Source: Burkholderiales bacterium (lineage in GTDB: Bacteria; Pseudomonadota; Gammaproteobacteria; Burkholderiales; Burkholderiaceae_C). From it: a stretch of DNA of 18,389 nt. Below, piece after piece: positions 291-18,389 of the stretch. The first letter of the stretch is position 1; each line of letters starts with the position of its first letter. The DNA lies in the NCBI GenBank assembly GCA_947474415.1, contig CANJKD010000002.1, positions 1-18,389 of the forward strand, read 5' to 3'. The position numbers and the translations under genes are program-made. Below the pieces are notes generated by a model, which was not told where the DNA came from, searched no databases, and saw only the letters and a program-made list of their open reading frames with translations.

Positions 291-1919
291 TCAAAGGGTC
301 CGGAGATCATCCCGTGACTGGAGGAATGCCTTCGCTCTCGATCGTCCATCGTCCAGATCTTCTTCCTGAAGATTCTCCTCGCAATACGCGCGGATCTTGT
401 CGCCGCGCTCATCATCGCTAGTTGCGCTCAACAGGGCCCACTTGTACGCCTCCGCGTGATCAGTGTGTACGCCCGAGCCCTTGAGATAGTTGATCGCCAA
501 ATCCACCTGCGCCGGCCCAAAGTTCCTCTCGGCGGCCTGAGTCAGCCAGTACGCGGACCTCTCCTCATCGACCGGACCACCGTCCACGCCCCCTAGAAGT
601 AGTGCGAGGTTGTATTGCGAATACACCTCCCCCATGGCAGCGCTCAGCTCAAGATGGTGAATCGCCTTCTCGATATTCCTCTCAACGCCTTGGCCAGCTA
701 GATACATTTGCCCGATCGCCCCATGCGCCTTGCGATTTCCTGATTCGGCTGCCATCTGAAGCCAATAGATCGCTTTGCGGTAGTCGGGAACCCCGTCAAT
801 ACCTGATTGATAAAGTAAGCCAAGGTTTAGTTGAGCAGAGTCATGTCCTTTGGCTGCAGCTCGCTCCAAGTAGCTCGCTGCCAGCCCTCTATCGACTCGA
901 ACGCCCTCTCCGTGCTCATAAAAGACGCCCAAGTTGTACTCGGCGACGACATCTCCCAGTTGCGCTGCTTGCTCATAAAGCTCAGCAGCTCTTGCTAAGT
1001 CGCGTTGAACTCCCCCGGCGCCAAGCTCAAAAAGTTCACCGATTCCACGAATTGCGCCCGGGTTACCCTGCTCCGCTGCAACTGAGTACCACTTCAGCGC
1101 CGCTTCGTAATTCTTCTGAATACCCGATCCGTGATGGTAGGACCACGCCAAGTTGAACTGCGCCTGGGCAGAACCGCGCTCAGCCGCGAGCTTGAAGCAT
1201 TCATGCGCTTTGGCTAGATCCTGCTGGCAACCATAGCCTCTTGAGTAGTTCATGCCCAAGCCGATGATGCCGTCCAGATCGCCCGCGTCTGCAGCAGCTT
1301 GAAATAGCTGAAACGAGCGCTCGTAATCCTTCTCAACGATGTCACCGTCCACAAAATGAAGAGCGAGAGTGGTCTGAGCCTTTGCCAGCCCGTTTTCAGC
1401 AGCTTGCTCAAGCAACAAAATTCCCTGTGATACCTGCTTTGGGTCATCTGATCGGAGGAGATGGTTGCCGAAATTTAGCTTGCCCGCATCACCTCCTAGT
1501 TGTGCCGCCATTTCATAGAGAGCAACCGCCTTTTCTTCATCTTTTTCAAAGTACAGGCCCCACCTGTACATGTTCCCAAGGTCATTCAGGGCCGTTGGAT
1601 CGCCTTGTCTCGCCGCTTTGTCAAACCAATAAGCGGCCTTCTCATAATCAACGTCAACACCATTCCCCAGGGCGTAAAAACCTCCTACGCACGCTTGAGC
1701 AGCTGGATAACCAAGTTCGGCCGAAGAAAAATATAGATCCCTCGCTCGCTCAATATCTTGAATGGTTCCAATCCCTGAATCCAGCATCAATGCAGACAGA
1801 TATTGAGCCTTCGGATCACCACGACTAGCTGCGGCATCGAGTAACAAAAAGGCATCCTCGTGCTCCCCAGCCTGGGTCAGCTGTTCGGCGCGATTCAGAA
1901 GATTTTGGATATCGCTCAT
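291..1919 (-). CDS. SEL1-like repeat protein
   Basis: This encodes 542 residues from the ATG at 1919 (MSDIQNLLNRAEQL). The frame is open further upstream, but that would run into the end of the preceding gene. Nearly the whole protein is SEL1-like repeats, about a dozen of roughly 36 residues, with the usual signature of a Gly-containing helix A, an xxYxxG turn, 'D..KA..W(Y/F)..AA..G' and 'AQ..L'. An acidic tail (ENLQEEDLDD) follows the last repeat. There is no signal peptide, so it should be cytosolic. SEL1 solenoids are protein-interaction scaffolds and occur in many bacterial signalling and defence loci. The gene starts 28 bases after the TPR gene, with AGGTC about 7 bases before the ATG, so it is probably the last gene of the same operon. 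The repeat annotation is secure; the function is unknown. Confidence 0.85.
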   Translation of the reverse strand: MSDIQNLLNRAEQLTQAGEHEDAFLLLDAAASRGDPKAQYLSALMLDSGIGTIQDIERARDLYFSSAELGYPAAQACVGGFYALGNGVDVDYEKAAYWFDKAARQGDPTALNDLGNMYRWGLYFEKDEEKAVALYEMAAQLGGDAGKLNFGNHLLRSDDPKQVSQGILLLEQAAENGLAKAQTTLALHFVDGDIVEKDYERSFQLFQAAADAGDLDGIIGLGMNYSRGYGCQQDLAKAHECFKLAAERGSAQAQFNLAWSYHHGSGIQKNYEAALKWYSVAAEQGNPGAIRGIGELFELGAGGVQRDLARAAELYEQAAQLGDVVAEYNLGVFYEHGEGVRVDRGLAASYLERAAAKGHDSAQLNLGLLYQSGIDGVPDYRKAIYWLQMAAESGNRKAHGAIGQMYLAGQGVERNIEKAIHHLELSAAMGEVYSQYNLALLLGGVDGGPVDEERSAYWLTQAAERNFGPAQVDLAINYLKGSGVHTDHAEAYKWALLSATSDDERGDKIRAYCEENLQEEDLDDGRSRAKAFLQSRDDLRTL

Positions 1920-1947
1920 TTTTGACCTGCGATTACCGACTGCTCTC

Positions 1948-4900
1948 TCAAACCACACGTAGGACGCTTAGGAGAAGGCCAGGGCGTCCGTCAGCGACAA
2001 CACAACTTGTTGCAGCCTGCAGCACAGCCATATCGTGATCGCCCAAATGTGCAGTGCTGTTTCTTGCGCGTCCAAGGTCAATCAACTGGCCAACGAGCTC
2101 ATTGCCCCTGAGAGTTCGAGAGTCGCCAAAGCGACCCTGCGAGATCGCATCGCGAAATCTCACAGTCAATTCGTCATCGGACGAGCGATACGAACGGCTC
2201 GCTGCCTCCATGAGCCGGGCAATGCCCCCGATCGAAGGAGGAGGTCCGCCACTCATGAACCGTGCTGCATCTCGGTGACGCTCGGAAGTCAGTGTGTGCG
2301 CATCCGGCATCGAATCACGGAAAGGCACCATGATCTTAGAGACCAACAGGTATTCGGCGACCTTGCTGATGTACAGAGCGTAGGCCGCAGCAAGCTCCTG
2401 CCCTCGCATAAGAGACAGATTGGCACCTCGCATCCAATCGCGCAGTGGCGGCTTAAGCTGCTCAAGCCAAGGCCAGGACTGCACCTCGGTAGAACTCGAG
2501 GCCATCACGGGTGCGATTCGAGAAAGTCGTTCAACAGCGATGGCTTCCCCGAGCCGATACGCTACATCGCTGGCCGCCCTCTCAACCAGCAGTGCCCGAG
2601 CCTTTTCAAGCTCCTCGTCTGCCGATTCGGCATGGCCCGAACTGATCAGGGACGTGATCAACGCGGTTAGCAGGCTGGGATGCCCCGGCGACCGCCTCAG
2701 ACCATCTCTAATCTGGCTTACACGCTCTTCCTCCGTCCCGCGACCCTCAAGCGCGGTCGCCAGCGCAAGCCGCGCTCTAACGCAAGTTGGATCTCGTCGA
2801 ATTGCGTCCCGCGCAAGGTCCTCGGCCAATTCCGGGTTCCCGGACGCATGCGCGCGTTCAGCCGCGAGCGCACGGAAAACCGCGTCAGGTTTTCCTTCCG
2901 GATGATTGAAATTGCCGGCGGTCTCGTCTCTCAGGCCCGACTCAATGAGCCGATCCGCCTTCTCGACATCACCGCTTTGGATCGCGATCTTCGCCTCCAC
3001 CAAACGCGGCGGTGGTTGATCGGTCATCTTGCTGATGATCACTTCAGCGTAGTCTGACTCGTCAGCCGCAAGACAAGCTTCGGCGTGAAGAATCATCCAG
3101 TCGCCATTCATCCATTTCGGCCACTCGTTAACCTTGCTGACCAGCGGCATCAGAAGATCAAGTCTTCCAAGTTCCAGGAAGCATTTCGCTGCGAGGTAGT
3201 GATCTTCTAAGCTGGCTTCACCAAGGAGCGACAGGTCTTCCGCATCGCGCTCGTCAGACCAGAGATCTTCTGGCGTACGAATTTCAGCGTCATTCCAAAT
3301 CGCCTTCTGGAAGCAGTCGACAGCACTGGTGAGCTTGCCCTGAAGAACAAGTGCCTGCCCCAATAGGGAAGCACCCTTGAGCGAGGACTGCCAATCCGAA
3401 CGGAGACGCTCTATGAACGGGTCGAGATCTTCGCCCAAGAGGCCAGTTCTCGCGGCGTCGATGGCATTGGAAATCGGTAGCAGGAAGCGCTCGTCCTTTT
3501 CCAGAGCGATTCGATATGCCTCCAATGCCAGCTTGTACTGCCCGGCATTGAGTCGGGTGTTGCCAAGGATGGTCCAGCTGCGAGGGGTGTCCATGGACAT
3601 CTTCTCGGCAGCATCGATTGCCTCAGAGTGTCGACCCAGGCTAGACAGTTCGACGACCACGTTGGGAGAGAACGACTCTCCTCCAGGGATCGTGCATCCA
3701 TAGCGCCAGATCTCCAGTGCCAGTTCACGGTCCCCGGTCTTCGACGCCATCAGTCCGAGCGCACTGAGGAAGTCAACCCGTTCAGGCGCCTCGACCGCAT
3801 TTCGACGATCCCATGCGTACCTCACCAATGGCCTTAGTGCTGGCCAGCCCATGCCGGAGGAGAGTTGGTCAACGAACTGCATGTACTGATAAGGATGCAG
3901 CGTCCGGTCTTGGTAAAGGCGGACAAGATGCTCTACAAGCGATTGATTTGGCAGCGCCAGTCGAGCGTCTTTTGTTGCCTGTAGAGCTCGGTGCGCGTCC
4001 TTGGCGCGACCAGCAGACAAGAGAGCAACGATAAGGTTGGCGTGAAAAAGAGGACGCTTAGGATCGAGGGCGATTGCCTGGCGATGAAGCTCTGCTTCCT
4101 TCACGAAGTCATATTCGATTGAACCGTAACTGTTCCCGAGGAGATCAAGGGCAATCGGCAGGTGGGGGTCGTCTGGCGGGGCAGATTCGATCGCACGCAG
4201 AAGCATGGACCGGGCGCCGTGGAAGTCGCCCTTGTCTTGGTACATCGAAGCGAGGTTGGTGTTCGCCAGGACGTGATTTGGGTCTGCACGAACAGCCCGC
4301 TCGTAGAACTCACGCTGTTGCTCTGGGCGATCCCGCTTCATCGAGATGAGACCCAGTAGCGTCAATGCATCGGCGTGCTCGGGCTTTTCGCCAATGACAC
4401 GGAGCAGCAGCGGTTCCGCATGATCCAACTGGCCGGCGATGTAGTGACAGTAGGCTAGTCCGTAGGCCAGGTCGAGATCACCCGGTTTCCTCTCCAGCAG
4501 CTGCTTGAACTGAATCACTCCGCTTCTTGCAGCTTCCTTCGGGTCTCCGTGCCGTCCCCTTAGTACTTCGTCGTCGAACTTCCTGAGAACGAGATCTTTG
4601 CGCAACCGCTCAAGATCCGTCCCATCCCGCAGAGCGGAAAGTGTGTTGCGATCCACATCGGTTGCGCCAGGGAGGTTGGCGGCCTTTTCGAAGGAGACGA
4701 TCGCTTGCTCGCGATTGGCTGCACCAACGCAAGCCCATCCACGAAGGGACCACGCGTCGCGGGAATTCGGCACCGCCTGTACAGCCTGATCGAGGTAGAA
4801 GACTGCCATCTGGTCGAGGCCTTTGTAGCAAAGCAACCAGCCCAAATCGAGCAGGCAGCCAGCGTGGGGCGGCGACAGGTGAGCGCCTTTCATCAAAGCT

Positions 4901-5187
4901 TGAGACCCAGCGTTTATGCCGCCCTCATCTCCGGATGCCAAGCCTTCGATGACCTGGTACTCGCCCAACTGCCACCAGTCGTCACCTGATCTTTCCGACT
5001 CAGGCTTTGTCTTCAGCCGATCAATCACAGACTGCCGGACAGCGCTTCTTGGGTAAGAGCGCCAAGAAGCACCCATCGGGTCTACTTGATGCAACCTCTC
5101 GACGCGTCCGCTACCGATGCGAAACACGTTTGACGTGTGGCTCGCGCTGCCAGTACTGGCCCCCTTCTTGTGCTTCTTCTTGCCCAT
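1948..5187 (-). CDS. Large TPR-repeat protein with HEPN-like C-terminus
   Basis: The chosen start is the ATG at 5187 (MGKKKHKKGAS, a Lys-rich N-terminus), preceded by GGAG about 10 bases upstream; this gives 1079 residues. The frame is open to 5358, but that would overlap the 136-residue gene. Residues about 75-870 contain many TPR-type repeats, for example A..LL..V...PEHADALTLLGL and YERAVRADPNHVLA. The last 150 residues are different: predicted helices end in LGRARNSTAHLGDHD, where R1042 and H1047 form an R-x4-H motif within an RNxxAH context, as in HEPN RNases and their inactive relatives. No catalytic partner domain or membrane segment is seen. TPR solenoids joined to HEPN domains are plausible abortive-infection effectors, but here that is inference. 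The gene starts 16 bases after the 136-residue gene. Confidence 0.8.
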   Translation of the reverse strand: MGKKKHKKGASTGSASHTSNVFRIGSGRVERLHQVDPMGASWRSYPRSAVRQSVIDRLKTKPESERSGDDWWQLGEYQVIEGLASGDEGGINAGSQALMKGAHLSPPHAGCLLDLGWLLCYKGLDQMAVFYLDQAVQAVPNSRDAWSLRGWACVGAANREQAIVSFEKAANLPGATDVDRNTLSALRDGTDLERLRKDLVLRKFDDEVLRGRHGDPKEAARSGVIQFKQLLERKPGDLDLAYGLAYCHYIAGQLDHAEPLLLRVIGEKPEHADALTLLGLISMKRDRPEQQREFYERAVRADPNHVLANTNLASMYQDKGDFHGARSMLLRAIESAPPDDPHLPIALDLLGNSYGSIEYDFVKEAELHRQAIALDPKRPLFHANLIVALLSAGRAKDAHRALQATKDARLALPNQSLVEHLVRLYQDRTLHPYQYMQFVDQLSSGMGWPALRPLVRYAWDRRNAVEAPERVDFLSALGLMASKTGDRELALEIWRYGCTIPGGESFSPNVVVELSSLGRHSEAIDAAEKMSMDTPRSWTILGNTRLNAGQYKLALEAYRIALEKDERFLLPISNAIDAARTGLLGEDLDPFIERLRSDWQSSLKGASLLGQALVLQGKLTSAVDCFQKAIWNDAEIRTPEDLWSDERDAEDLSLLGEASLEDHYLAAKCFLELGRLDLLMPLVSKVNEWPKWMNGDWMILHAEACLAADESDYAEVIISKMTDQPPPRLVEAKIAIQSGDVEKADRLIESGLRDETAGNFNHPEGKPDAVFRALAAERAHASGNPELAEDLARDAIRRDPTCVRARLALATALEGRGTEEERVSQIRDGLRRSPGHPSLLTALITSLISSGHAESADEELEKARALLVERAASDVAYRLGEAIAVERLSRIAPVMASSSTEVQSWPWLEQLKPPLRDWMRGANLSLMRGQELAAAYALYISKVAEYLLVSKIMVPFRDSMPDAHTLTSERHRDAARFMSGGPPPSIGGIARLMEAASRSYRSSDDELTVRFRDAISQGRFGDSRTLRGNELVGQLIDLGRARNSTAHLGDHDMAVLQAATSCVVADGRPGLLLSVLRVV

Positions 5188-5203
5188 CCGCGTAACTCCG
5201 TGA

Positions 5204-5614
5204 TCAAAGGCCGAGCATGTGCCCGGCCTTGACTGTCGCCCAATGCTTCCACTCGTCAGCCGCGTCTCGGTATGGCTTGGCCTCATTGAAGGCATCGATC
5301 GGGTGCCCGATGGAGTCCATGACCTTCTGCCCCTGCGCCTGGAGGACCTCGGAGACAACTAGACCGACCTCCAGCCGTTGCATTTCGAGATCCGGATCCG
5401 AGCACAAGCCGCTCCACTCAGCGTGCTTTAGCGCGGACTTCACGCCCCCTTCAAAGACGACCCACTCGACATGAAAGTCAGATCCTGCCGCCGTCACCTT
5501 CACGCCTCCGATGCCCGGTTCGCTGCACCACATGCCGTCGAAGACTCGGGGCAACTTGCGCTTTCTCAGCCCCTTCCGAAGCGCCTGAAGCTCATCTTGA
5601 GTTGGTAGCTTCAT
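5204..5614 (-). CDS. Hypothetical protein, 136 residues
   Basis: The ATG at 5614 (MKLPTQDELQALRKGLRKRKLP) is preceded by GAGGGA about 7 bases upstream on the minus strand. The protein has a basic N-terminal helix, then a region that looks beta-rich (VKVTAAGSDFHVEWVVFEGG), then a helical C-terminus (EVGLVVSEVLQAQGQKVM) with an aromatic cluster (EWKHWATV). I do not recognise the family. It lies 61 bases after the ankyrin-tailed gene and 16 bases before the TPR gene, all in the same direction, so it is probably co-transcribed. There is no signal peptide or transmembrane segment. Coding use is supported by gene-like G/C third positions and snug packing between neighbours. Confidence 0.65.
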   Translation of the reverse strand: MKLPTQDELQALRKGLRKRKLPRVFDGMWCSEPGIGGVKVTAAGSDFHVEWVVFEGGVKSALKHAEWSGLCSDPDLEMQRLEVGLVVSEVLQAQGQKVMDSIGHPIDAFNEAKPYRDAADEWKHWATVKAGHMLGL

Positions 5615-5674: not shown

Positions 5675-6349
5675 TTACTGGTTACCTGTCGCATCGACGG
5701 CTAACCAAGCCTCGATACCGAGATCCCGGGCAACTGCCCGAGCGCTTTGCCCAGAGGGGCCTACGGCATCCGCATCCGCGCCTTTCGCAATTAGCGCAGC
5801 CACAGCCTTGGCGTCCCTTCGGCGAAGCGCGTTTGGAAGCCGCTCGGTCGCCTGCATGCTCTTTTGGCTTCGAGCATCTTCAAATCTCGCCTGTTCACGC
5901 GCAGCAGTAGCCTGCTTCCGAGCGAAGCGTGCGTCTTCCTTCCTATCAAGCTCCTCCAAACTTCGGGCACCGTGGTTGCTGGTGCCGTATGGGGTGTAGT
6001 CATTGACCGTATTTCTGAGTACCCAATCTGCGAATCGATCTCGTTCATTCGAATCGACCATCGATGCGTAGATGCGAAATAGATTCGCAACCGGCGGAAC
6101 GCTCCCGAACTGTCGGTCGAACATCCGTTCGAAGTAGGTCAAGCCTTTGATCAGGTCAGCGACTTGAGCAGCTTCCCATCCATCTACTACGCGGTCCCAC
6201 TGCTTCCAGAGGACCCCAAAGTCCCAAGAGTTGGGCAATTGAGCATCGCCAATCACAGAACGATCCGTGGTGCGGCCAAGTTCCACTAACAACGGCACGA
6301 GGTCGATGATCCTCTGCTCCATCGGATCAGGCTTTAGGGGATGATTCAT
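5675..6349 (-). CDS. Hypothetical protein with ankyrin-like C-terminal repeat
   Basis: This encodes 224 residues starting MNHPLKPDPMEQRIIDL. The ATG overlaps the dam stop codon as ATGA (6346-6349), a sign of translational coupling. Residues 1-120 look helical and carry Trp-rich segments (SWDFGVLWKQWDRVVDGWEAAQ); I do not recognise this part. Residues about 130-165 are a charged helical linker (RKEDARFARKQATAAREQAR). Residues about 171-212 resemble one ankyrin-type repeat (LPNALRRRDAKAVAALIAKG followed by ADADAVGPSGQSA). A single repeat is unusual, because ankyrin domains normally have several, so it may pack against another helical protein. The coupling to dam suggests it partners or regulates the methyltransferase; this is inference. 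Confidence 0.75.
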   Translation of the reverse strand: MNHPLKPDPMEQRIIDLVPLLVELGRTTDRSVIGDAQLPNSWDFGVLWKQWDRVVDGWEAAQVADLIKGLTYFERMFDRQFGSVPPVANLFRIYASMVDSNERDRFADWVLRNTVNDYTPYGTSNHGARSLEELDRKEDARFARKQATAAREQARFEDARSQKSMQATERLPNALRRRDAKAVAALIAKGADADAVGPSGQSARAVARDLGIEAWLAVDATGNQ

Positions 6350-7218
6350 TCAGCCGTTCCTTCGACAGCTTGTTGCGCAGCTGGCCGATAGTGCCTGCCA
6401 CCGGCTGCGTTTATTCGCGGCGTGAGGCTTTCAGAGAGCCAGACGAAGTCCCGCCCAATCTCTATCCAGCCCCCGCCATCTGGCACCAACGCGTCGGCAC
6501 GCTCTCCCCAACAGAAGATCACATGTGCGCCGAGATCGACCAGGCGCCGCATCTCCGCAGAAAGAACGCGGACCTCACTCACGCCGAAGCGGTCGACGTT
6601 ATAGGACTGCTGATCGACCTGGTCGTCGCCGTAAAGGTACGGCGGGTCAAGAAAGACAAGGTCACCTGCCCCCACGCGATCGAGCGCATGTCTGAAGTCA
6701 CATCGCTGGACGATTGCCCCCTCCAGGAGCGCAGCCGAACGGACCACATCCTGATGCCGCGCACGAAAGGCCTCCACGCCTCGTCTCCGAGACATGGAGA
6801 CTTGACCATCACGCGTCTCGTACCAGGTTGAGTGGAAAGACTGAGACAGCAGGTAGATCGTGTCGGCTGCGACTTGAAAGTCGACCGTGTCGTCAGCGAG
6901 CCGAGAGTTCAGGCGCCCGAGTACCGCTGAAAAATGAACATCCGAGTCCAGGAGCGCGTGCATCCGCAGCCCCGCTACAACCTCATGTGGCTCGGTCTGC
7001 GTGGCGCGAAAGACGTTTACCAATCGCGGGTTGACGTCCGACAGAAGGCTCTTTGAAATCAGGCCCGCAGATGCAAGGCCAAGAAATGCTGCGCCGCTGC
7101 CAAGGAACGGCTCGTGATAGGTCCCGAAGGTCGGAAGCTCAAGCCCGGAAAGAGCCTTGGCGACGCGCGCCTTGCTGCCAGCCCAATTGAAGAGCGCAGG
7201 GGCACGTCTGCTCGTCAT
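6346..7218 (-). CDS. dam: Dam-like (D12 class) adenine-N6 DNA methyltransferase
   Basis: The ATG at 7218 (MTSRRAPALFNWAGSK) overlaps the RT stop as ATGA (7215-7218), so translation is probably coupled; the product is 290 residues, normal for the family. The enzyme transfers a methyl group from SAM to adenine N6. The D12 (alpha-type) motif order is visible: NWAGSK (11-16, usually WAGGK), the SAM-binding EPFLGSGA (36-43), and the catalytic DPPY (191-194) followed by the expected YNVDRFG. All key residues are present, so it should be active. Family members often methylate GATC, but the specificity here is unknown. It lies inside a retron operon between RT and an ankyrin-tailed gene, without its own restriction enzyme. 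From memory, dam-like genes also lie near retron Ec67 and Ec73, so the link has precedent, though I do not know of it for the ARM/WH-SWIM type. Confidence 0.93.
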   Translation of the reverse strand: MTSRRAPALFNWAGSKARVAKALSGLELPTFGTYHEPFLGSGAAFLGLASAGLISKSLLSDVNPRLVNVFRATQTEPHEVVAGLRMHALLDSDVHFSAVLGRLNSRLADDTVDFQVAADTIYLLSQSFHSTWYETRDGQVSMSRRRGVEAFRARHQDVVRSAALLEGAIVQRCDFRHALDRVGAGDLVFLDPPYLYGDDQVDQQSYNVDRFGVSEVRVLSAEMRRLVDLGAHVIFCWGERADALVPDGGGWIEIGRDFVWLSESLTPRINAAGGRHYRPAAQQAVEGTAE

Positions 7219-8624
7219 AGCCAGGCGTATCGCTCTTTCAGGCCTGCGGCGTGCTCCGGCATGACCATGGTGACGTAGGCGAGGTGCCCTCGAGCGACTG
7301 CCAGGGCGTCTTTCCCGATCGCAAGGGAAACCGCCTCGACCCCCTCCTTGTCGCAACGATGCAAGAAGGCCCGAAGGCGGCGAAGGTCCCGACGCGACAG
7401 ACGAATCTCGTCACCAACCAGCAGGCCGGTCACAACCTGACGCCCCGGGGCCCGCATTACCGCCGTCTTCTCAGCGTTGATCCGAAATCCTTCGTCGCTA
7501 ACGATCTTCTCGATTGCCTTCAGCAACCGGCCCACATCAGCGTTTTCATCGCGGCAGGAGAAAGTCAGATCGTCGGCGTAGCGGGTATAGGTCCAGTCGG
7601 ACTCAAGTGCCTTGCACAGGCCCGCGAGACGGGCGTCCAGCGGGGTCGCTATCAGGTTTGCGAGCGCCGGAGATGTGCAAGCGCCCTGCGGGAGTCCCCG
7701 ATCGCCCATCGCGACGTACTTGACCGCACCATCCAGCGCAAGCCGAACGCGAGGCGCGTCTGTGCAAATCAAGGCCAGCACCGTGGCGATGCCAGGGTTA
7801 AACCCGAGGTACTCGAAGTAGCCTCTGACGCGTGGAAAGCTGATAGACGGGAAGAAGTCCTTTAGGTCCAGCTTCACCACAATGGGAGCATTGAGGTGCG
7901 GTGTTGCGTTGTCGATGATGGACGTACCAGGACGGAACGCCATGGCGTGGAGCGATGGCGACAGCAGATCCAGTATGTTCTTGGCGATCCAGGACTGGGC
8001 GACGCGCAACTTCGGCTTCGGCGATGAGATCAACCGGCGTCCGCCGGACTTCTTCGGGATCTCGAACCGGGTGTAGTGGTCGACCGTCGTGGCGGCACGC
8101 TCGTAGCTCAGCCAGAGTACTTCGCTCGGGTCGAGTTTCATCAACTCAGCAAGCTGCTCAAGGTTCTCGGGCATCGGCAGGCCCTTGGAGGCCAGTTCGG
8201 TCGCCTGCCCCCCCTCGAAGCTCAGATGTGCAGATACGCCATGCCCAAGAAAGCGCGGTGTCTTGCGCTTCTCTTCAGCGAGTTCCTGACGACGCCTTGC
8301 TTGCTCTTCAGCCTTGCGAACCTTCCGCTCTTCGCGCTCGCGCTTGACCCGCTCGATGCGTTCTCGCCGAACCTCTTTGAGCAGGGACTCGATGTCGTTG
8401 ACACCGTCGATCTGTGCGCGGATCTCGGCCAGATCCTTCTTGAGTTCCGCAAGCCTCGGGTAGGCCCGGTCCAAGAACGTCTGAATGCGAACTCGCTCCG
8501 AGTCGCTGAGCTTGGAGCTGAAGAACCCGAGCCGCAGCATTTCCTCGCGAACGAAGTTGCGCTTCCCGATCTGGGCAATCCTTTCTTGCCAGTCGGGATT
8601 CAGTGCGAGGTCTTGCTCTGCCAC
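7215..8624 (-). CDS. Retron-type reverse transcriptase
   Basis: This encodes 469 residues from a GTG at 8624, 11 bases after the WH-SWIM stop. It copies part of the msr-msd RNA into branched msDNA. Residues 1-125 form an unusual N-terminal extension: a helical part, then a very charged coiled-coil-like segment (about 80-120, rich in E, R and K). The RT core begins near residue 150: RFEIPKKSGGRRLI (186-199, RT1), LDLKDFF (252-258, first catalytic Asp), GLPQGACTSPALAN (310-323), and YADD (349-352, catalytic pair). Two retron-specific marks are present: NATPH (239-243, the NAxxH motif) and VTG (398-400). Group II intron maturase and DGR-specific features are absent. Long N-terminal extensions also occur in myxobacterial retron RTs. 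The matching ncRNA lies at 13153-13387, separated by two accessory genes. Confidence 0.95.
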   Translation of the reverse strand: MAEQDLALNPDWQERIAQIGKRNFVREEMLRLGFFSSKLSDSERVRIQTFLDRAYPRLAELKKDLAEIRAQIDGVNDIESLLKEVRRERIERVKREREERKVRKAEEQARRRQELAEEKRKTPRFLGHGVSAHLSFEGGQATELASKGLPMPENLEQLAELMKLDPSEVLWLSYERAATTVDHYTRFEIPKKSGGRRLISSPKPKLRVAQSWIAKNILDLLSPSLHAMAFRPGTSIIDNATPHLNAPIVVKLDLKDFFPSISFPRVRGYFEYLGFNPGIATVLALICTDAPRVRLALDGAVKYVAMGDRGLPQGACTSPALANLIATPLDARLAGLCKALESDWTYTRYADDLTFSCRDENADVGRLLKAIEKIVSDEGFRINAEKTAVMRAPGRQVVTGLLVGDEIRLSRRDLRRLRAFLHRCDKEGVEAVSLAIGKDALAVARGHLAYVTMVMPEHAAGLKERYAWL

Positions 8625-8635
8625 GGCCTAACTAC

Positions 8636-10267
8636 CTAGCTCAGGGACAGGGCAACGATGTGACGGCATGGGCCTTCACGCAGCTTGTTCGCGCGGAAGT
8701 GACCGCAAGTGCATTCGGCATACGTCACCCGTCCATCCGGATCCGATTCCAGGGTGGTTGTGCGATCGGTCGAATCCGATACAGAAGCCACCCTCGTTCG
8801 GCGCCCGTCCTCGACGGATTCCGATTCGATGGACACTGCCCCAGATGCATGAAGCTCGATGCCTTTGCGCTCTTCTAGCGCGGGAGCCGACAGTTTGGTC
8901 AGGTCGAACTCAGGGTAAAGCTCTCTCCATCGGAATGACGCAGTGTCGGGATCGAACATCGCCTTTCCCAACATGCACAGCTTTTGAAGCGCACCTCGAG
9001 CATCGGCCTCGCCTACATCAGCAGCCGCCGCCAACTGGGTGGGGTTCATCCTCCCCGAAGACTTCAGCAGTGCTGCAGCTCGCGTCATCAGCTGTGTCGA
9101 CACGTTGGCCGAGGGCATCAAGGCGCTGAATCGCGCTCGCCCAGCCCAGTCCAAGGCGGTCCAGCCCGACAGACCGACGGTCAGTTCGACGTCGTCGACA
9201 TGCACAGTCCAGAACGACGGCATTCCGGACCCAAGCAGGCGCACGTCCAGCGAGGTGGCATCCGGGAGGATGTCCTTCAGAATAAGCAGTCGGCGTCGAC
9301 CCCAGACCCGAATCTCCTCGGGGCGAGCGCCCATGTACTTGCTCGTGTGGTCCACCACCACCGTTCCCCATGGCTCGATTTCGACCGACACAGGCTCATC
9401 TGGGTAGAGGCGGAACTTCAGCGACCGGGGTCCGTGCTTTTCCTTCTCCGCTTCCAGTCGGGCCACGATGTCCGCAACAAACGCCGGGTTCAGCCGAAGC
9501 GTTACGGGGGACAGCATCAAGGCCGACTGCACCTCAACCAAACCCCGGACCCAGCTCTCCGGCAGATCGATCTTCTTCTCCACCGCCGCGCCGACTTCGG
9601 TTTCGATCTGTACAGCCTGCGCACCGACTGTCAGATCCAAAGGACGGTAGGTACGGATTCGCGAGAACTCTCTCTCCAGGGGAATACCGAAGTCGATGTT
9701 CGTCGTTCCCGGCTTGATGGCGTCAGGCGAGTCCAGTGACTCATGTGCCAGACGCACCCGCCCGTACACCGACTCGTCCACAGAAAATCCTTCGAAGAAG
9801 GTCGCGTCGTCTTGGACGCTGACGATCGGGTCAAGCTGAATCCAGGCCTGCCGGTTGTGCTCGTACAGCCAGTCGTAGAACTTGTACAACTCCTTGTCCG
9901 TGTCCAGCTGCTCGGAGGCCTCGCTGATTTCCTTTTGAAGCGCCCTGATCGCTTCAGCCAACGCAGCTTCACGTTCACGCAGCTTCGGCAGCCCCTTGAG
10001 GCGCTTTGCCTGGGTGGCGTCAACTTCTTTCAGGTATTGGCCGTAGACCCACTCTTGGTAAGCGCTGTGGTCCTTCTCCGTGGCACGGGCCGACATCTTC
10101 ACGATTCGGCCAAGCACCAGCATGACTTTCGAGAACGCCGGCCCGCAGCGCACGCGCCCCTTCAGGAAGACCGCATCCCGAGTCTGGTCGGTCAGCAGCG
10201 TCAGGTGGCCGGTCGCGGCGGCTGCGACCGTATCGACCTTCGCGTAGCGGGCTATGTGCGTTGCCAT
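8636..10267 (-). CDS. Winged-helix / SWIM zinc-finger retron accessory protein
   Basis: This encodes 543 residues. The ATG at 10267 (MATHIARYAKVD) is chosen because AGGAGG lies 6 bases upstream, the best Shine-Dalgarno site in the window; the frame is open further upstream, but that would overlap the ARM gene. A predicted coiled coil covers about 84-124 (REREAALAEAIRALQKEI). The middle is beta-rich and unrecognised. A winged-helix-like segment lies at about 394-450 (LLKSSGRMNPTQLAAAADVG). The C-terminus carries a SWIM zinc finger: C519-x-C521 ... C534-x-H536, followed by IVAL. SWIM fingers bind DNA or proteins. An ARM plus WH-SWIM pair beside an RT is, as I recall, the signature of type XIII retrons. 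The gene ends 11 bases before RT. Confidence 0.85.
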   Translation of the reverse strand: MATHIARYAKVDTVAAAATGHLTLLTDQTRDAVFLKGRVRCGPAFSKVMLVLGRIVKMSARATEKDHSAYQEWVYGQYLKEVDATQAKRLKGLPKLREREAALAEAIRALQKEISEASEQLDTDKELYKFYDWLYEHNRQAWIQLDPIVSVQDDATFFEGFSVDESVYGRVRLAHESLDSPDAIKPGTTNIDFGIPLEREFSRIRTYRPLDLTVGAQAVQIETEVGAAVEKKIDLPESWVRGLVEVQSALMLSPVTLRLNPAFVADIVARLEAEKEKHGPRSLKFRLYPDEPVSVEIEPWGTVVVDHTSKYMGARPEEIRVWGRRRLLILKDILPDATSLDVRLLGSGMPSFWTVHVDDVELTVGLSGWTALDWAGRARFSALMPSANVSTQLMTRAAALLKSSGRMNPTQLAAAADVGEADARGALQKLCMLGKAMFDPDTASFRWRELYPEFDLTKLSAPALEERKGIELHASGAVSIESESVEDGRRTRVASVSDSTDRTTTLESDPDGRVTYAECTCGHFRANKLREGPCRHIVALSLS

Positions 10268-10277
10268 GACCGACCTC

Positions 10278-13121
10278 CTATGACGTGGTGCTGACCTGCA
10301 CCTGTGGGATGGGGTGTCCATCCAGCGCAAGACGAGCCAGTTGTTGAAGCGCCCAATCGCGGTCCCGTAGTGACGAGCCCCGGGCCATATCAACGAGAGC
10401 CTGTATTCGGCGGTCGTCGACCGTCTGATTGGAGCCAATGGAGACCGCAGCGTCTGGCACTGGCGTCTCCAACCGACGTTTGACCAGCTCCTTGGCCTTA
10501 CGCCCAGTTCGCCGAGTCCGGAGCACCCGGTTGTCGAACTGATCTAGCGCATCCCGTTTGACTGCGATCCCTGAGGCGGCAAAGTGGGCTACCACGGCCG
10601 TGACGTCTGGTGACGTGTGTTCAGCCAACGCAACGAGCAGCGCATTCAGATCGAGACGGTCCCGATGGCGCTCGATGAAGCGAAGACCGATAGCCCTGGT
10701 CGAACTGGCTCCACTGTCGCAAACCGTGATGACCGCCTTGGTGAGCGCGGAACGGTCCTTGATCGACGCAACGTAATGTTCAGCGGCCGTAACGGCTGCG
10801 GGCATGCCACTCTCGGCAAGAGGCACGTAGATCGATTCGACGAGGCGACGCGACTCCAGTCGGGCGATCACTAGCTGCTGCAGTTCAGGATGAGGACTGG
10901 TCGCACAGGCAACTGCAAAGCCCCGTTCCTGATACAGGCGCGAAGGAGACGCTCGCAAGGCCTGCGTCACGTAGCTGGCCTGCACGGCCCCAATCGTCTT
11001 GATCTCGTCAGAGTTGATGGCATCTACAAGCGCTCCAGCGAGTGCTCTGGACTCCACGTGGATCTGCGCCACTGGGGACGACAACCCACCCCCGACACCC
11101 ACCCACACCAATCGGGTGACAGCTGGATCTCTGGCAACGACTTTCTGAAGCACGGCTGGCCGAGTTGCCCACCCGCCGTCTGGCATCCGCTCGACAATGC
11201 GGCTCAGCGTGCCCAGCGTCTGTTGGGAATCACCTTTGGTCGCCAGTCGCAGCAACAGATTCTCAGCAAGCTTGGGATCGGCTGACGCGGCTGCGATGGC
11301 CAGGCTGGAGAGCAACTGCGCGGCAGACTGATGGCGCTCGATCCGCTCGATACGGTCCTTGGACTGAAGCGCTTCGAGGAGGGATTCCAGACCTTTCGCC
11401 GAACCGGCCTGAGCAACCAGGTTGTTCCAAACTGTGGCGACCGTTGCGTCGCCTGCATCGGCCAGAAGGGTCCAGCCCAGTGCGCGAAGTGCGTGCGAGG
11501 GACTGAGCGTCAGGGCTGCGGCAAGGTTCTCATCACCGGCACCCTTTGCCACAGCATCCTTGCAGGCTGCGTCAATGGATCGGACCACAGACTGGGGAAG
11601 TTCAGGCAGGTGCAACCGCAATTCGACCAGCGACTTCAGAGGCAACGCTCCGAAGGTGTCCCGCCACTGCGCCACTGGCTTGAACTGCGTGGTTTGGCCA
11701 ACGTAACGCGCCAGCTGGTAGGTCTCAGCGGCATTGAACCGCGTTCGCAAGTGGCGCAGGGAATAGCTCAGCAACCTAGCCGCGCGCTTCTCGTCACTTG
11801 AGGGCATGCCACCGCGTCGAATCTCCGAAAAGCCGTGCTCGTCGATGTAGGCCAACACGGCGTCCTGGAGCAACTTGGAGTCGGCATGCGCCTCAAGCGT
11901 CGGGTAGACCGCCGTGAATTGCCTCGCCGAACTGAACTCCAGGAACACCTGCGCAGTTGCGGCGTCCAGTTCGAGCAAGTGCTTAGGCTTGGCTGCTACC
12001 TGGTCGAAGGCATGAGCTTGGAGCCGCTCCGATGGGCTCAGAAGTGCCAAGCGCAGGCCGGCCGCGGGCAGCGATGGCAGCTCCTGTCGCTGCGACTTCA
12101 GAACGTTGAAGGCCCAAACCTGAATGTCCGTGTTGTGGGCAGTCGCGCGCCAGATCCCCCGTACCAGATCGATGTGCTCGTTCCATACCTTGGGGAAACG
12201 GTCCCAGCGGCGGTCATAGCGGTATTGCCCATCGGGCAACGACAAGGATCCGTGGCCATGGTTGCTGTCCGAGGCGCCTCGACCGTAGAGGATGTCGGAA
12301 AGAATCCAACGGCTGGCGATCTTGGTGTGGGCACCCTGCGCATCTGCAGCGCTGAGGAGGGCTGCGGCACACCGAGCGTAGGCGGCCTGATCGTTGCGAC
12401 CTAGTCGACGAAGCCATCGTCGCCCACGACGCATCAGGTAGGCCACGGTGTCGGGACTGGCTACCACTGACGGTGCAGAGGATACAAACGAACGCAGTTG
12501 CTCGTCGGCCTGTACGTTGGCGACTTTCTGCAACTGGCCGTCCACACGAGCCAGCGCAACGGCTAGCAGCGCTTCGGCTTCGGGTTTGGCCTCAAGCAAC
12601 TTGATCAGGCGCTTGTATGGCGCCCAGTACCCAAACCTGAACGGCGCCTTTGCGAAATAGCGCTCAATGCCGGCTGCCAGATCTGGCGTGATATTCGAGC
12701 CTCGCTCCACCTGGCCGGCAAGGTACCTGCCCATGCCAACCGTAATGGAGTCGCCCGCCAAGTCGGCAGCGCCCTGAGTGGTGTCGACCAGGAACTTGAG
12801 TTTCAGGCCTGGGAAGAGAGCCTTGATGGCCTCCCGTCCAGCGGCATCGCCGGTGGTTCGGCCCTTTTCGAAGAAATCTGCCGGACTGGCTGCGATCGCT
12901 TTCAATCGATCGACCGCCTCACGCTCGGTCTTCGGCTTGAACGAGTACGTCCAACCTTGACCCCGACTCTGGTAGCTGTTGTCTGAGAGTTTTGCGGAGA
13001 AATCGATCGCGCCTGAATGCGCAATCGCCGCGATATTCATTCGGCAGTTCGACCAGCGCGACTGTCCCGGCCCCTCAAGGTGAGCGGCACAGAGAACTTC
13101 TACGCGGTCGGTTCCTCCCAT
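10278..13121 (-). CDS. ARM/HEAT-repeat retron accessory protein
   Basis: This encodes 947 residues from the ATG at 13121 (MGGTDRVEVLCAAH), 31 bases after the msr-msd a2 repeat, with AAGGGA about 10 bases upstream. A later ATG at 13040 (MNIAAIAHSGAID) is possible, and the frame also stays open upstream to a GTG at 13235 inside the ncRNA. Most of the protein consists of paired amphipathic helices typical of an ARM/HEAT solenoid, for example LESLLEALQSKDRIERIE and LAENLLLRLATKGDSQQTLG. The N-terminal 150 residues are less regular and include GQGWTYSFKPKTEREAVD. No enzymatic motif, signal peptide or membrane segment is visible, so it is probably a cytosolic scaffold. It is the first protein gene after the retron ncRNA and ends 10 bases before the WH-SWIM start, as expected for a type XIII-like retron. 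Confidence 0.8.
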   Translation of the reverse strand: MGGTDRVEVLCAAHLEGPGQSRWSNCRMNIAAIAHSGAIDFSAKLSDNSYQSRGQGWTYSFKPKTEREAVDRLKAIAASPADFFEKGRTTGDAAGREAIKALFPGLKLKFLVDTTQGAADLAGDSITVGMGRYLAGQVERGSNITPDLAAGIERYFAKAPFRFGYWAPYKRLIKLLEAKPEAEALLAVALARVDGQLQKVANVQADEQLRSFVSSAPSVVASPDTVAYLMRRGRRWLRRLGRNDQAAYARCAAALLSAADAQGAHTKIASRWILSDILYGRGASDSNHGHGSLSLPDGQYRYDRRWDRFPKVWNEHIDLVRGIWRATAHNTDIQVWAFNVLKSQRQELPSLPAAGLRLALLSPSERLQAHAFDQVAAKPKHLLELDAATAQVFLEFSSARQFTAVYPTLEAHADSKLLQDAVLAYIDEHGFSEIRRGGMPSSDEKRAARLLSYSLRHLRTRFNAAETYQLARYVGQTTQFKPVAQWRDTFGALPLKSLVELRLHLPELPQSVVRSIDAACKDAVAKGAGDENLAAALTLSPSHALRALGWTLLADAGDATVATVWNNLVAQAGSAKGLESLLEALQSKDRIERIERHQSAAQLLSSLAIAAASADPKLAENLLLRLATKGDSQQTLGTLSRIVERMPDGGWATRPAVLQKVVARDPAVTRLVWVGVGGGLSSPVAQIHVESRALAGALVDAINSDEIKTIGAVQASYVTQALRASPSRLYQERGFAVACATSPHPELQQLVIARLESRRLVESIYVPLAESGMPAAVTAAEHYVASIKDRSALTKAVITVCDSGASSTRAIGLRFIERHRDRLDLNALLVALAEHTSPDVTAVVAHFAASGIAVKRDALDQFDNRVLRTRRTGRKAKELVKRRLETPVPDAAVSIGSNQTVDDRRIQALVDMARGSSLRDRDWALQQLARLALDGHPIPQVQVSTTS

Positions 13122-13152
13122 GTCAGCGGTCCCTTTTGTTCTTAGAAAAAGC

Positions 13153-13387
13153 AAGCGCGGGCTGCTCCTACCATCCACCTCAGATCGGTGGCAATCACTG
13201 TAGGCGCACGGTGGGGAGAAGGGGGCGTCCTTCACCGTGGACTCTACGAGTCGACTCAGCGCGGTGAAGGAAGCCCCCGTCTCCCCACCGTGTGCTGAGA
13301 GGCATTGCCATCCGGTGACGTATCACCGGCTTTACTGCTGCCGCGGCGAAACACCGCAGCGTCTTTGCTAGGAGCAAGCCCGCGCTT
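13153..13387 (-). ncRNA. Retron msr-msd non-coding RNA
   Basis: Read on the minus strand. The ends are inverted repeats: a1 (13369-13387) pairs with a2 (13153-13170), 18 bp with one bulged base. Directly after a1 comes G (13368) in the context TAGC, where a retron branching guanosine is expected. Then come two msr hairpins: a GCTGC/GCAGC-closed stem (13337-13360) and a perfect 7-bp stem with a 4-base loop (13312-13329). The msd is a long hairpin: 13204-13219 pairs with 13280-13295 (16 bp, one wobble), then 6 bp (13221-13226 with 13273-13278) and 10 bp (13228-13237 with 13262-13271), separated by single mismatches. A small CCACC/GGTGG hairpin (13175-13191), with GATC in its loop, lies next to a2. 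The order a1-G-msr-msd-a2 is that of known retrons. The predicted msDNA is the plus strand from 13171 to roughly 13300, about 130 nt. Confidence 0.9.
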
Positions 13388-13393
13388 AACACA

Positions 13394-13423
13394 ATTCTAT
13401 TTCCGTTCAGATTGAATACCTAA
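13394..13423 (-). promoter_or_regulatory. Promoter of the retron ncRNA/operon
   Basis: On the minus strand TAGAAT (13394-13399) is one base from the sigma-70 -10 consensus and would start transcription at about 13387, the first base of a1. The -35 candidate TTAGGT (13418-13423, 18-base spacer) is weak. The local sequence is markedly AT-rich compared with its surroundings. The exact fit to the ncRNA 5' end supports it. Confidence 0.6.
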
Positions 13424-17013: not shown

Positions 17014-17028
17014 GCTCACCTGGTGAGC
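17014..17028. promoter_or_regulatory. Palindromic operator candidate
   Basis: GCTCACCTGGTGAGC is a perfect 7-1-7 inverted repeat directly next to the -35 box of the leftward promoter and about 95 bases before the divergent HTH gene. Its position suits a repressor or activator site for one or both directions. Confidence 0.45.
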
Positions 17029-17068
17029 CTCCCGCTGGTTAGCCTGCGGCGGGTTCTATTGGAGCGCA

Positions 17069-17100
17069 TTGGACTGGTTTGCCCTGGATTCCACTATACT
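17069..17100 (+). promoter_or_regulatory. Possible promoter of the HTH gene
   Basis: TATACT (17095-17100) is a good -10 box, 22 bases before the ATG. The best -35, TTGGAC (17069-17074), has a spacer of 20 bases, longer than optimal, so an activator or another -35 may be used. Confidence 0.35.
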
Positions 17101-17121
17101 GATGCAATCCGGAGGAAGCCG

Positions 17122-17352
17122 ATGACGCCCGCCCTAGAACCCGCAATGACCGTCAGGGAAGTTGCGACATTCCTGAACGTCGACGAGAAGACGATTTACC
17201 GCCTTGCCCAGAAGGGGGAACTGCCAGGATTCAAGGTCGCGGGTGCTTGGCGATTCCAGCGAACGGACATCCAGAGATGGATCGATTCGCGCAAGGGGCC
17301 AAGCGCTGCCGGAGACGTGGCCAAGGGACGGCCGTCTGAAGGTGAGACATGA
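17122..17352 (+). CDS. Excisionase-family helix-turn-helix protein
   Basis: This encodes 76 residues. The ATG at 17122 has GGAGGA about 6 bases upstream; an open frame to 17023 is not needed. MTVREVATFLNVDEKTIYRL and GELPGFKVAGAWRFQRTDIQ form the MerR/excisionase-type winged HTH (HTH_17): 'TVREVA..L.V...TIYRL...GELPG.KV...WRF...DI..WI'. The tail is hydrophilic. Such small proteins either direct recombination or act as local regulators. Here it is followed by a DUF499 ATPase, and the same pair opens several DUF499/DUF1156 defence clusters as I recall, so a regulatory role for that cluster is more likely than excision; no integrase is in the window. The palindrome at 17014-17028 is a candidate target. 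Confidence 0.85.
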   Translation: MTPALEPAMTVREVATFLNVDEKTIYRLAQKGELPGFKVAGAWRFQRTDIQRWIDSRKGPSAAGDVAKGRPSEGET

Positions 17353-17444
17353 ATCGCCCGAACCGATCAAGCCCCGCTTCGAGCGACCACTGCCTGCCAC
17401 TACGGAACACAAGAACCTGCGACGGAGTAACGCGATGCTCTTAA
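17349..17444 (+). CDS. 31-codon ORF linking HTH and ATPase genes
   Basis: The ATG at 17349 overlaps the HTH stop (ATGA), and the TAA at 17442-17444 lies just inside the ATPase gene. The peptide starts MNRPNRSSPASSDHCLPLRN and shows no domain. It could couple translation between the two genes, or be chance, since the ATPase has its own GGAG site. Confidence 0.25.
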   Translation: MNRPNRSSPASSDHCLPLRNTRTCDGVTRCS

Positions 17445-18389
17445 CTGTCAAACAAGCCTGCACCCTCAACGAAGGCGCACTCAACATTCGCATCAGCGAC
17501 GGCATTGAGCGTGTCGATGAGGAAACCCAGAGCATCGACGACGGTCGCCTGTTCCTCAAGCATTCCTACCTGACGAAGGGCATGGTCGAGCTAGTGCAGG
17601 AGGGCTTCAAGCGCCTGTCGGGTGGACTCGGTGGCAAGCCCGTCTTCCGCCTGAAGCAAGCGATGGGTGGCGGTAAGACGCACCTGATCAAGACCATGGC
17701 GTTCCTGGCACGGCACGAGCCGCTGCGGTCAGAGTTCTTCAGTGAAGCTGCGAGCCGCTACAAGTTCGGCGCCGCGAAGGTCACGTTCTTCAACGGACGG
17801 GAGCAGCCGGACGACTACTTCTGGGGGCGCATCGCCGCCCAGCTTGGCCATGAGGGCTTCTTTGAGCCGGGCGTCAAGGCTCCGGGCGAGAACCATTGGA
17901 CGGACCTTTTCAACAAGATCGATGCGCCTGCGTTGATCCTGTTGGACGAGATGCCGACCTACTTTGCGTACTACAAGACTCAGCCCATTGGCGGTGGCAC
18001 GGTCGCCGACGTCGCAGGACGCGCGTTCGCCAACATGCTCACTGCGGCGATGGCACGCAAGAACATCTGCGTGGTGGTTTCGGATCTTGAGGCGTCCCAT
18101 GCCGAGGGAACGCAGATCATCAACGCGGCCCTGGAAAACGCCCGCAAGGAACTCAGTCGCGTCGAGTTCAACATCACACCAGTCGACTTGGCTGGTGACG
18201 AGACCTACGCCATTCTCAAGAAGCGGCTCTTCGCCAGCCTTCCAGATGCCAACAAGATCGGCCACCTGGCCCAGATGTACGCCAAGTGCATCGAGCAGGC
18301 GCAGAAGTCGCGCACGATCGATCAACAGAAAACCCCTGAGCAGTTGGCCATGGAGGTCGAGCAGACCTACCCGTTTCACCCGCAGATGA
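17435..18389 (+). CDS. DUF499-type ATPase, truncated by the window end
   Basis: The ATG at 17435 (MLLTVKQACTLNEGALNIRI) follows GGAG by about 8 bases. The 318 residues seen are the N-terminal part of a much larger protein; the frame runs off the window. Walker A is QAMGGGKTHL (75-84) and Walker B is ALILLDEMPTYF (166-177), with the D-E pair intact, so it is an AAA-like P-loop ATPase. The pattern 'GGKTH' and 'LDE.P.YF' is typical of DUF499 proteins, which usually exceed 900 residues. These occur with a DUF1156 methyltransferase and a helicase in a proposed anti-phage system (called Hma in some catalogues, from memory). The gene is preceded by a small HTH gene. The partners would lie beyond 18389. 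Confidence 0.85.
   Translation, partial: MLLTVKQACTLNEGALNIRISDGIERVDEETQSIDDGRLFLKHSYLTKGMVELVQEGFKRLSGGLGGKPVFRLKQAMGGGKTHLIKTMAFLARHEPLRSEFFSEAASRYKFGAAKVTFFNGREQPDDYFWGRIAAQLGHEGFFEPGVKAPGENHWTDLFNKIDAPALILLDEMPTYFAYYKTQPIGGGTVADVAGRAFANMLTAAMARKNICVVVSDLEASHAEGTQIINAALENARKELSRVEFNITPVDLAGDETYAILKKRLFASLPDANKIGHLAQMYAKCIEQAQKSRTIDQQKTPEQLAMEVEQTYPFHPQM

Follow-up and report, generated by a model that had tools for sequence, protein, structure and literature searches.

Type XIII retrons are represented in PADLOC-DB by three protein families, namely a reverse transcriptase (RT_XIII), a SWIM zinc finger protein (SWIM_XIII) and a large protein recognized by the profiles WGR_XIII and HEAT-ARM_XIII. 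Their noncoding RNA (ncRNA) typically lies between the SWIM and reverse transcriptase (RT) genes, a position which is not known to us as a defining trait. One such retron is reported from a Variovorax in the available text of PMC11953036, and in the literature covered, to which the type-defining paper did not belong, no study of how type XIII retrons work or of clamp folds among their proteins, and no known activity of their effectors, was found. In the retrons Ec86 and Asa1/Squ1, adenine methylation of the multicopy single-stranded DNA (msDNA) acts as a signal (available portions of PMC12409349 and PMC12548924), and the methyltransferase concerned is borne by the phage and serves as the trigger. 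This paper describes a type XIII-like locus which encodes an adenine methyltransferase together with the retron, on contig CANJKD010000002.1 (C2) of Burkholderiales bacterium GCA_947474415.1, a draft genome of 509 contigs that is 68% complete. The whole contig of 18,389 nt was analysed and is called the window here.

On the minus strand of the window an ncRNA, an ARM/HEAT protein, a winged-helix/SWIM protein, an RT and a D12-class methyltransferase are encoded in this order (Table 1). The ncRNA repeat a2 is separated from the ATG of the ARM gene by 31 bp, the ARM and SWIM genes by 10 bp and the SWIM and RT genes by 11 bp; the RT and methyltransferase genes share an ATGA overlap, and the methyltransferase stop codon overlaps an unnamed 224-aa open reading frame (ORF). 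An earlier reading made from the DNA letters alone had recognized this gene set with its ncRNA and given spacings of 10-31 bases, both as found here. However, it ended the locus at 7215, although the methyltransferase gene (7218-6346) overlaps the RT stop codon and the operon continues. Its list of retron parts stands; the methyltransferase and a predicted sliding-clamp fold were overlooked. The data are best explained by a complete retron that belongs to a diverged subgroup of the type XIII kind, in which clamp and solenoid effectors would be restrained on msDNA and released by phage, and the methyltransferase would set the quiet state; as a whole, this explanation is given an even chance of being right.

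The assignment to type XIII, made in the sequence-only reading too, is one on which PADLOC profiles, remote homology of the ARM protein and an ncRNA covariance model agree. The profile search which that reading had proposed gave 480 bits for the RT with RT_XIII (299 bits for the next-best family), 506 bits for the SWIM protein with SWIM_XIII (profile positions 6-501 of 509 covered), and partial matches of 69 bits (WGR_XIII) and 58 bits (HEAT-ARM_XIII) for the ARM protein, compared with WGR_XIII scores of 778-873 bits for four ARM proteins from other type XIII loci. An HHalign comparison of 28 ARM proteins of the window's kind with eight from other type XIII loci gave a probability of 98.3 and an E-value of 1.2e-14 over 634 columns, run with no unrelated solenoid as control. 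The RT carries the NATPH, YADD and VTG motifs read before and the Pfam domain RVT_1, and the chains closest to it in the PDB come from retron RTs, with Ec86 at the top (E 1.7e-38). In an RT tree of 30 rows, a single branch separates the window, its one near relative with available DNA (L002, a 3.6-kb contig whose RT is 77% identical) and 20 other type XIII RTs from the rest, but its support is 67/35 and the outgroup branches are long, so that the tree speaks neither for nor against a common type XIII clade.

Compared with other type XIII loci, the window has in common the order large ORF, SWIM and RT and a related ncRNA, but its SWIM protein is only about 31-37% and its RT core about 42-46% identical, its ARM protein is remotely related, and its RT is shorter, with 469 aa, than the RT reading frames picked in 16 other loci, which span 610-769 aa. 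Moreover, the ncRNA lies ahead of the ARM gene rather than in the SWIM-RT gap, and the methyltransferase is coupled, whereas the other loci lack one in the stretches fetched. The SWIM_XIII score of 506 bits stands against 664-733 bits for other full-length proteins, and therefore the window is placed in a diverged subgroup. The closest relatives of both the SWIM and ARM proteins reach 94% identity, and a SWIM relative in a Cyanobium is 49% identical. SWIM_XIII is scarce. With the genome of the window included in each count, it occurs in 7 of 399 genomes from the order, 4 of 398 from the phylum and 19 of 399 from the family, and in three of these 19 the best E-values are only 1e-49 to 2e-29 and the proteins resemble non-retron paralogs. 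The order of the L002 genome has 16 genomes in the collection and that of the window at least 399, so the two seem to belong to different orders, which makes horizontal transfer between their lineages likely.

The ARM/HEAT protein of the earlier reading is upheld as an alpha-solenoid by PADLOC (weakly), HHalign, the fold search and an AlphaFold2 model with a predicted local distance difference test (pLDDT) of 85; its N-terminal beta domain is possibly a diverged WGR domain. Its start is most likely the ATG at 13121, which fits the exact length of 947 aa in 22 of the 51 listed relatives, and not a GTG at 13235 that lies within the ncRNA.

The ncRNA, described earlier as bounded by a1 and a2 and carrying a long msd stem, was found as such. 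As RNA it folds at -146.6 kcal/mol (z -11.3), and as DNA the predicted msDNA strand folds with z -9.1; in neither case was any of 200 shuffles as low. The arms a1 (13387-13370) and a2 (13169-13153) form about 18 pairs, and between them lie stem-loops at 13360-13340 and 13329-13312 and the long msd hairpin, which spans roughly 13309-13190 and has a main helix of 36 bp (13295-13253/13244-13204). The AGC directly after a1 is taken, by analogy with known retrons, to be the priming site. For comparison, 23 further loci in which the SWIM_XIII gene is full-length were fetched; in 22 of them an RT follows the SWIM gene, and all 22 have a conserved RNA in the gap, neither being found in the 23rd (L050). 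When 20 of these RNAs were aligned (two near-copies being omitted), 46 of 64 pairs had compensatory changes. The covariance model R1, built from the 20 with the window excluded, has its strongest match in each of the 22 loci in the SWIM-RT gap (180-278 bits); apart from their own opposite strands, the only other matches listed up to E 0.5 are in L022 (13.4 bits) and L024 (11.8 bits).

In the covariance search suggested earlier for this region, R1 matched the window ncRNA with 31.9 bits, an E-value of 6.4e-7 in 424 kb that is rough owing to short calibration. The opposite strand scored 15.8 bits, the next-best site within 7-14 kb 5.2 bits, and the best of eight non-XIII RT loci 13.7 bits, with flanks of 0.6-1.5 kb which possibly leave their own ncRNA outside. 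Since true ncRNAs can give 17-24 bits on the strand opposite to them, the hairpin shape accounts for part of the score, but not all of it. The distance of about 4.5 kb between ncRNA and RT, already called unusual, is thus a real difference from the 22 other loci. In L002 the SWIM-RT gap is closed as in the window. PADLOC includes retron ncRNA models, according to the available text of PMC9252829, and the RNA of the other type XIII loci may already be known. As a separate observation, a count by eye over the 20 aligned RNAs (L017-L061) gave GGCTTGnnnCAAGC as the msd hairpin tip in 13, which may be a binding site for a protein; the other seven have related tip hairpins. The window tip is different and reads GACTC-TAC-GAGTC, with three GANTC sites.

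For the SWIM protein, AlphaFold2 with Foldseek/VIA predicts at residues ~33-370 a PCNA-like two-domain sliding clamp fold with a coiled-coil insert at 68-143; in the model a winged helix follows at ~391-447, and the SWIM finger occupies 517-542, with C519-x-C521 and C534-x-H536 as the C-x-C and C-x-H pairs noted before. Among 41 family members, Pfam recognizes SWIM in all 41 (E up to 10) and HTH_24 in four. Three of the four inner helices of the predicted clamp are basic, as in DNA sliding clamps, and R203, R205 and R324-R326 are conserved basic residues. Unlike PCNA, the protein has the coiled-coil insert, the fused winged helix and the SWIM finger, and it is encoded by a bacterial retron. 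Sliding clamps are processivity factors of polymerases, and a clamp-like fold encoded together with a polymerase would suit a tool for making msDNA, either an RT processivity factor or a hairpin holder, the HEAT protein alone then being toxic. However, no more than about 140 nt have to be copied, most retron RTs produce msDNA without a clamp, and the protein's own winged helix and SWIM finger suggest other tasks, so this role is considered rather improbable. SWIM zinc finger proteins ~24-29% identical over residues ~135-543 were also seen elsewhere (L040-L047, L062, L063 and plasmid hits H2-H6), in L062 and L063 with no type XIII RT found alongside, and the clamp-like fold may extend in part to these proteins.

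The methyltransferase has the Pfam domain MethyltransfD12 in common with Dam and DpnM and contains FLGSG and DPPY motifs; its nearest solved relative is DpnM (E 1.2e-16), and its Dam family score of 77 bits is below the cut-off of 114.85. The same stop-start junction with the RT is present in L002. Among the best 120 of 186 homologs, which were examined, a clade of 91 (P0172-P0262) is set apart from 29 others by a drop from 3e-52 to 8e-29. Among the 35 clade contigs that measure 5 kb or more, 22 have exactly the same length as a contig on which a close SWIM or ARM homolog is encoded, compared with none of the 29 non-clade homologs (23 on contigs of at least 5 kb); when sizes were jittered by up to 5%, matches averaged 0.14 and reached at most 2 in 2000 draws. 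Equal size indirectly indicates that methyltransferase and retron genes share a contig. In addition, P0221 is 84% identical to 68% of the methyltransferase, yet has 343 aa with deaminase Pfam domains, for which a fusion, a frame problem or an annotation oddity are candidates.

For the working of the system the following course is proposed. The RT would prime on the ncRNA and make msDNA whose DNA part is the long hairpin. At rest, as in other retrons, RT, ncRNA/msDNA, ARM/HEAT protein and clamp-SWIM protein may form one particle in which the effectors are held inactive on nucleic acid; given the predicted PCNA-like fold, the natural partner of the clamp protein would be duplex DNA, which the msd hairpin could supply. 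Known retron triggers include phage methylases, exonucleases, SSB and RecBCD inhibitors (PMC12409349; for the methyltransferase also PMC12548924, both as far as the available text goes). A phage altering or degrading the msDNA would release or reshape the clamp protein and its solenoid partner, which may then act at phage, perhaps also host, DNA and block or capture the replication machinery. The Pfam search gave no convincing catalytic family in the ARM or SWIM protein, and a clamp fold that carries no enzyme points to an effect through occupation of DNA or of the contacts of a polymerase. The coupled enzyme would set the methylation of msDNA or host DNA and so mark the normal as opposed to the infected state. 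Alternatively, it could mark host DNA as self, the clamp/HEAT complex seeking unmarked replicating phage DNA, with the msDNA a scaffold instead of a tripwire. The coupled methyltransferase, the DNA-clamp fold and the adjacent defence genes fit this arrangement, but no nuclease was found in the Pfam searches of the two proteins, and none of the 22 other SWIM and RT loci has a methyltransferase match in the stretch fetched, which means that the core system functions in its absence; we regard this self-marking arrangement as distinctly unlikely.

Several observations weigh against the proposed msDNA-restrained clamp system. The third inner helix of the predicted clamp is not basic, and HHalign found no relation between the SWIM alignment and seven PCNA sequences (probability 0.2), so that the clamp assignment is one of predicted structure; sliding clamps of different lineages have little sequence in common. 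The AlphaFold2 model, made from 41 sequences, is of moderate quality (mean pLDDT 77, predicted template modelling score 0.69, four segments below 50). With this and the lack of sequence support in view, the clamp match could be an artefact of structure prediction, which we consider quite improbable. The ncRNA position ahead of the ARM gene is seen in one genome only, as L002 ends before that gene. GATC is absent from the msd duplex; the sole GATC of the msDNA, at 13186, belongs to its unpaired 5' portion. Furthermore, 17 of 45 SWIM or ARM contigs of at least 7 kb have a size-matched methyltransferase among those listed and 28 have none, and therefore the linkage is common, not universal; for SWIM proteins listed at 46-51% identity (the Cyanobium included), 28 contigs reach 5 kb or more, and none has such a match. 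These gaps, like those in the other type XIII loci, would fit an orphan passenger methyltransferase beside an otherwise ordinary type XIII retron, but the stop-start overlap kept in two genomes, apparently of different orders, and the 22 size-matched clade contigs speak against this, and a mere passenger is held to be possible, though on the unlikely side.

Table 1. Features of the window; positions are those of the whole contig.
Feature	Position	Strand	Evidence
msr-msd ncRNA	13153..13387	-	fold z, helices, covariance model R1
Candidate AGC priming site, branching G at 13368	13367..13369	-	sequence, directly after a1
Predicted msDNA (reverse-transcribed strand), both ends approximate	13172..13310	+	position inferred from retron anatomy
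ARM/HEAT alpha-solenoid protein, 947 aa	10278..13121	-	PADLOC (weak), HHalign, AlphaFold2, fold search
Predicted sliding-clamp-like + winged helix + SWIM zinc finger protein, 543 aa	8636..10267	-	PADLOC, Pfam, AlphaFold2, Foldseek/VIA
Retron reverse transcriptase, 469 aa, GTG start	7215..8624	-	PADLOC RT_XIII, RVT_1, PDB neighbours
D12-class (Dam family) adenine methyltransferase, 290 aa	6346..7218	-	Pfam MethyltransfD12, DpnM
Unnamed 224-aa ORF	5675..6349	-	overlaps methyltransferase stop
SAM-I/IV riboswitch, then unnamed ORF and metK	16982-16878, 16315-15125	-	60.1 bits (riboswitch)
MAD1-like helix-turn-helix protein, then start of anti-phage-associated DUF499 protein	17023-18388	+	73.7 bits (cut-off 80); 426 bits
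Sel1-repeat and large TPR-repeat proteins, beside defence genes	291-5358	-	

The 224-aa ORF has no family match in PADLOC, Pfam or NCBIfam and is probably a passenger, since L002 has a convergent metK directly after the methyltransferase in its place (75% identical over residues 250-379). A metK gene is also found at the far end of the L052 stretch, and contig C89 of genome G000 has a second metK fragment at its edge (45%); for this recurrence of metK, coincidence, a hotspot and a link to the use of SAM are candidates. On the other side of the retron, the DUF499 gene is cut by the contig end; MAD1 is a component of a methylation-associated defence system, and the region is regarded as a defence island.

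A bolder form of the proposal would make type XIII retrons in general 'clamp retrons', in which the resting msDNA hairpin carries a PCNA-like ring that, once the msDNA is disturbed, is passed on to phage DNA undergoing replication and jams the replisome; in this subgroup its own adenine methyltransferase would make methylated msDNA the safe state, and the template RNA would have moved to the head of the operon. This joint picture is speculative, and we think it improbable as a whole. The sliding-clamp fold in an effector nevertheless offers a testable idea, that of a clamp mimic interfering with DNA synthesis, and a retron-encoded adenine methyltransferase fits the published role of msDNA methylation as a retron switch. 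If true, a clamp effector would be a new mode of retron action and would bring a PCNA-like fold into a bacterial defence protein.
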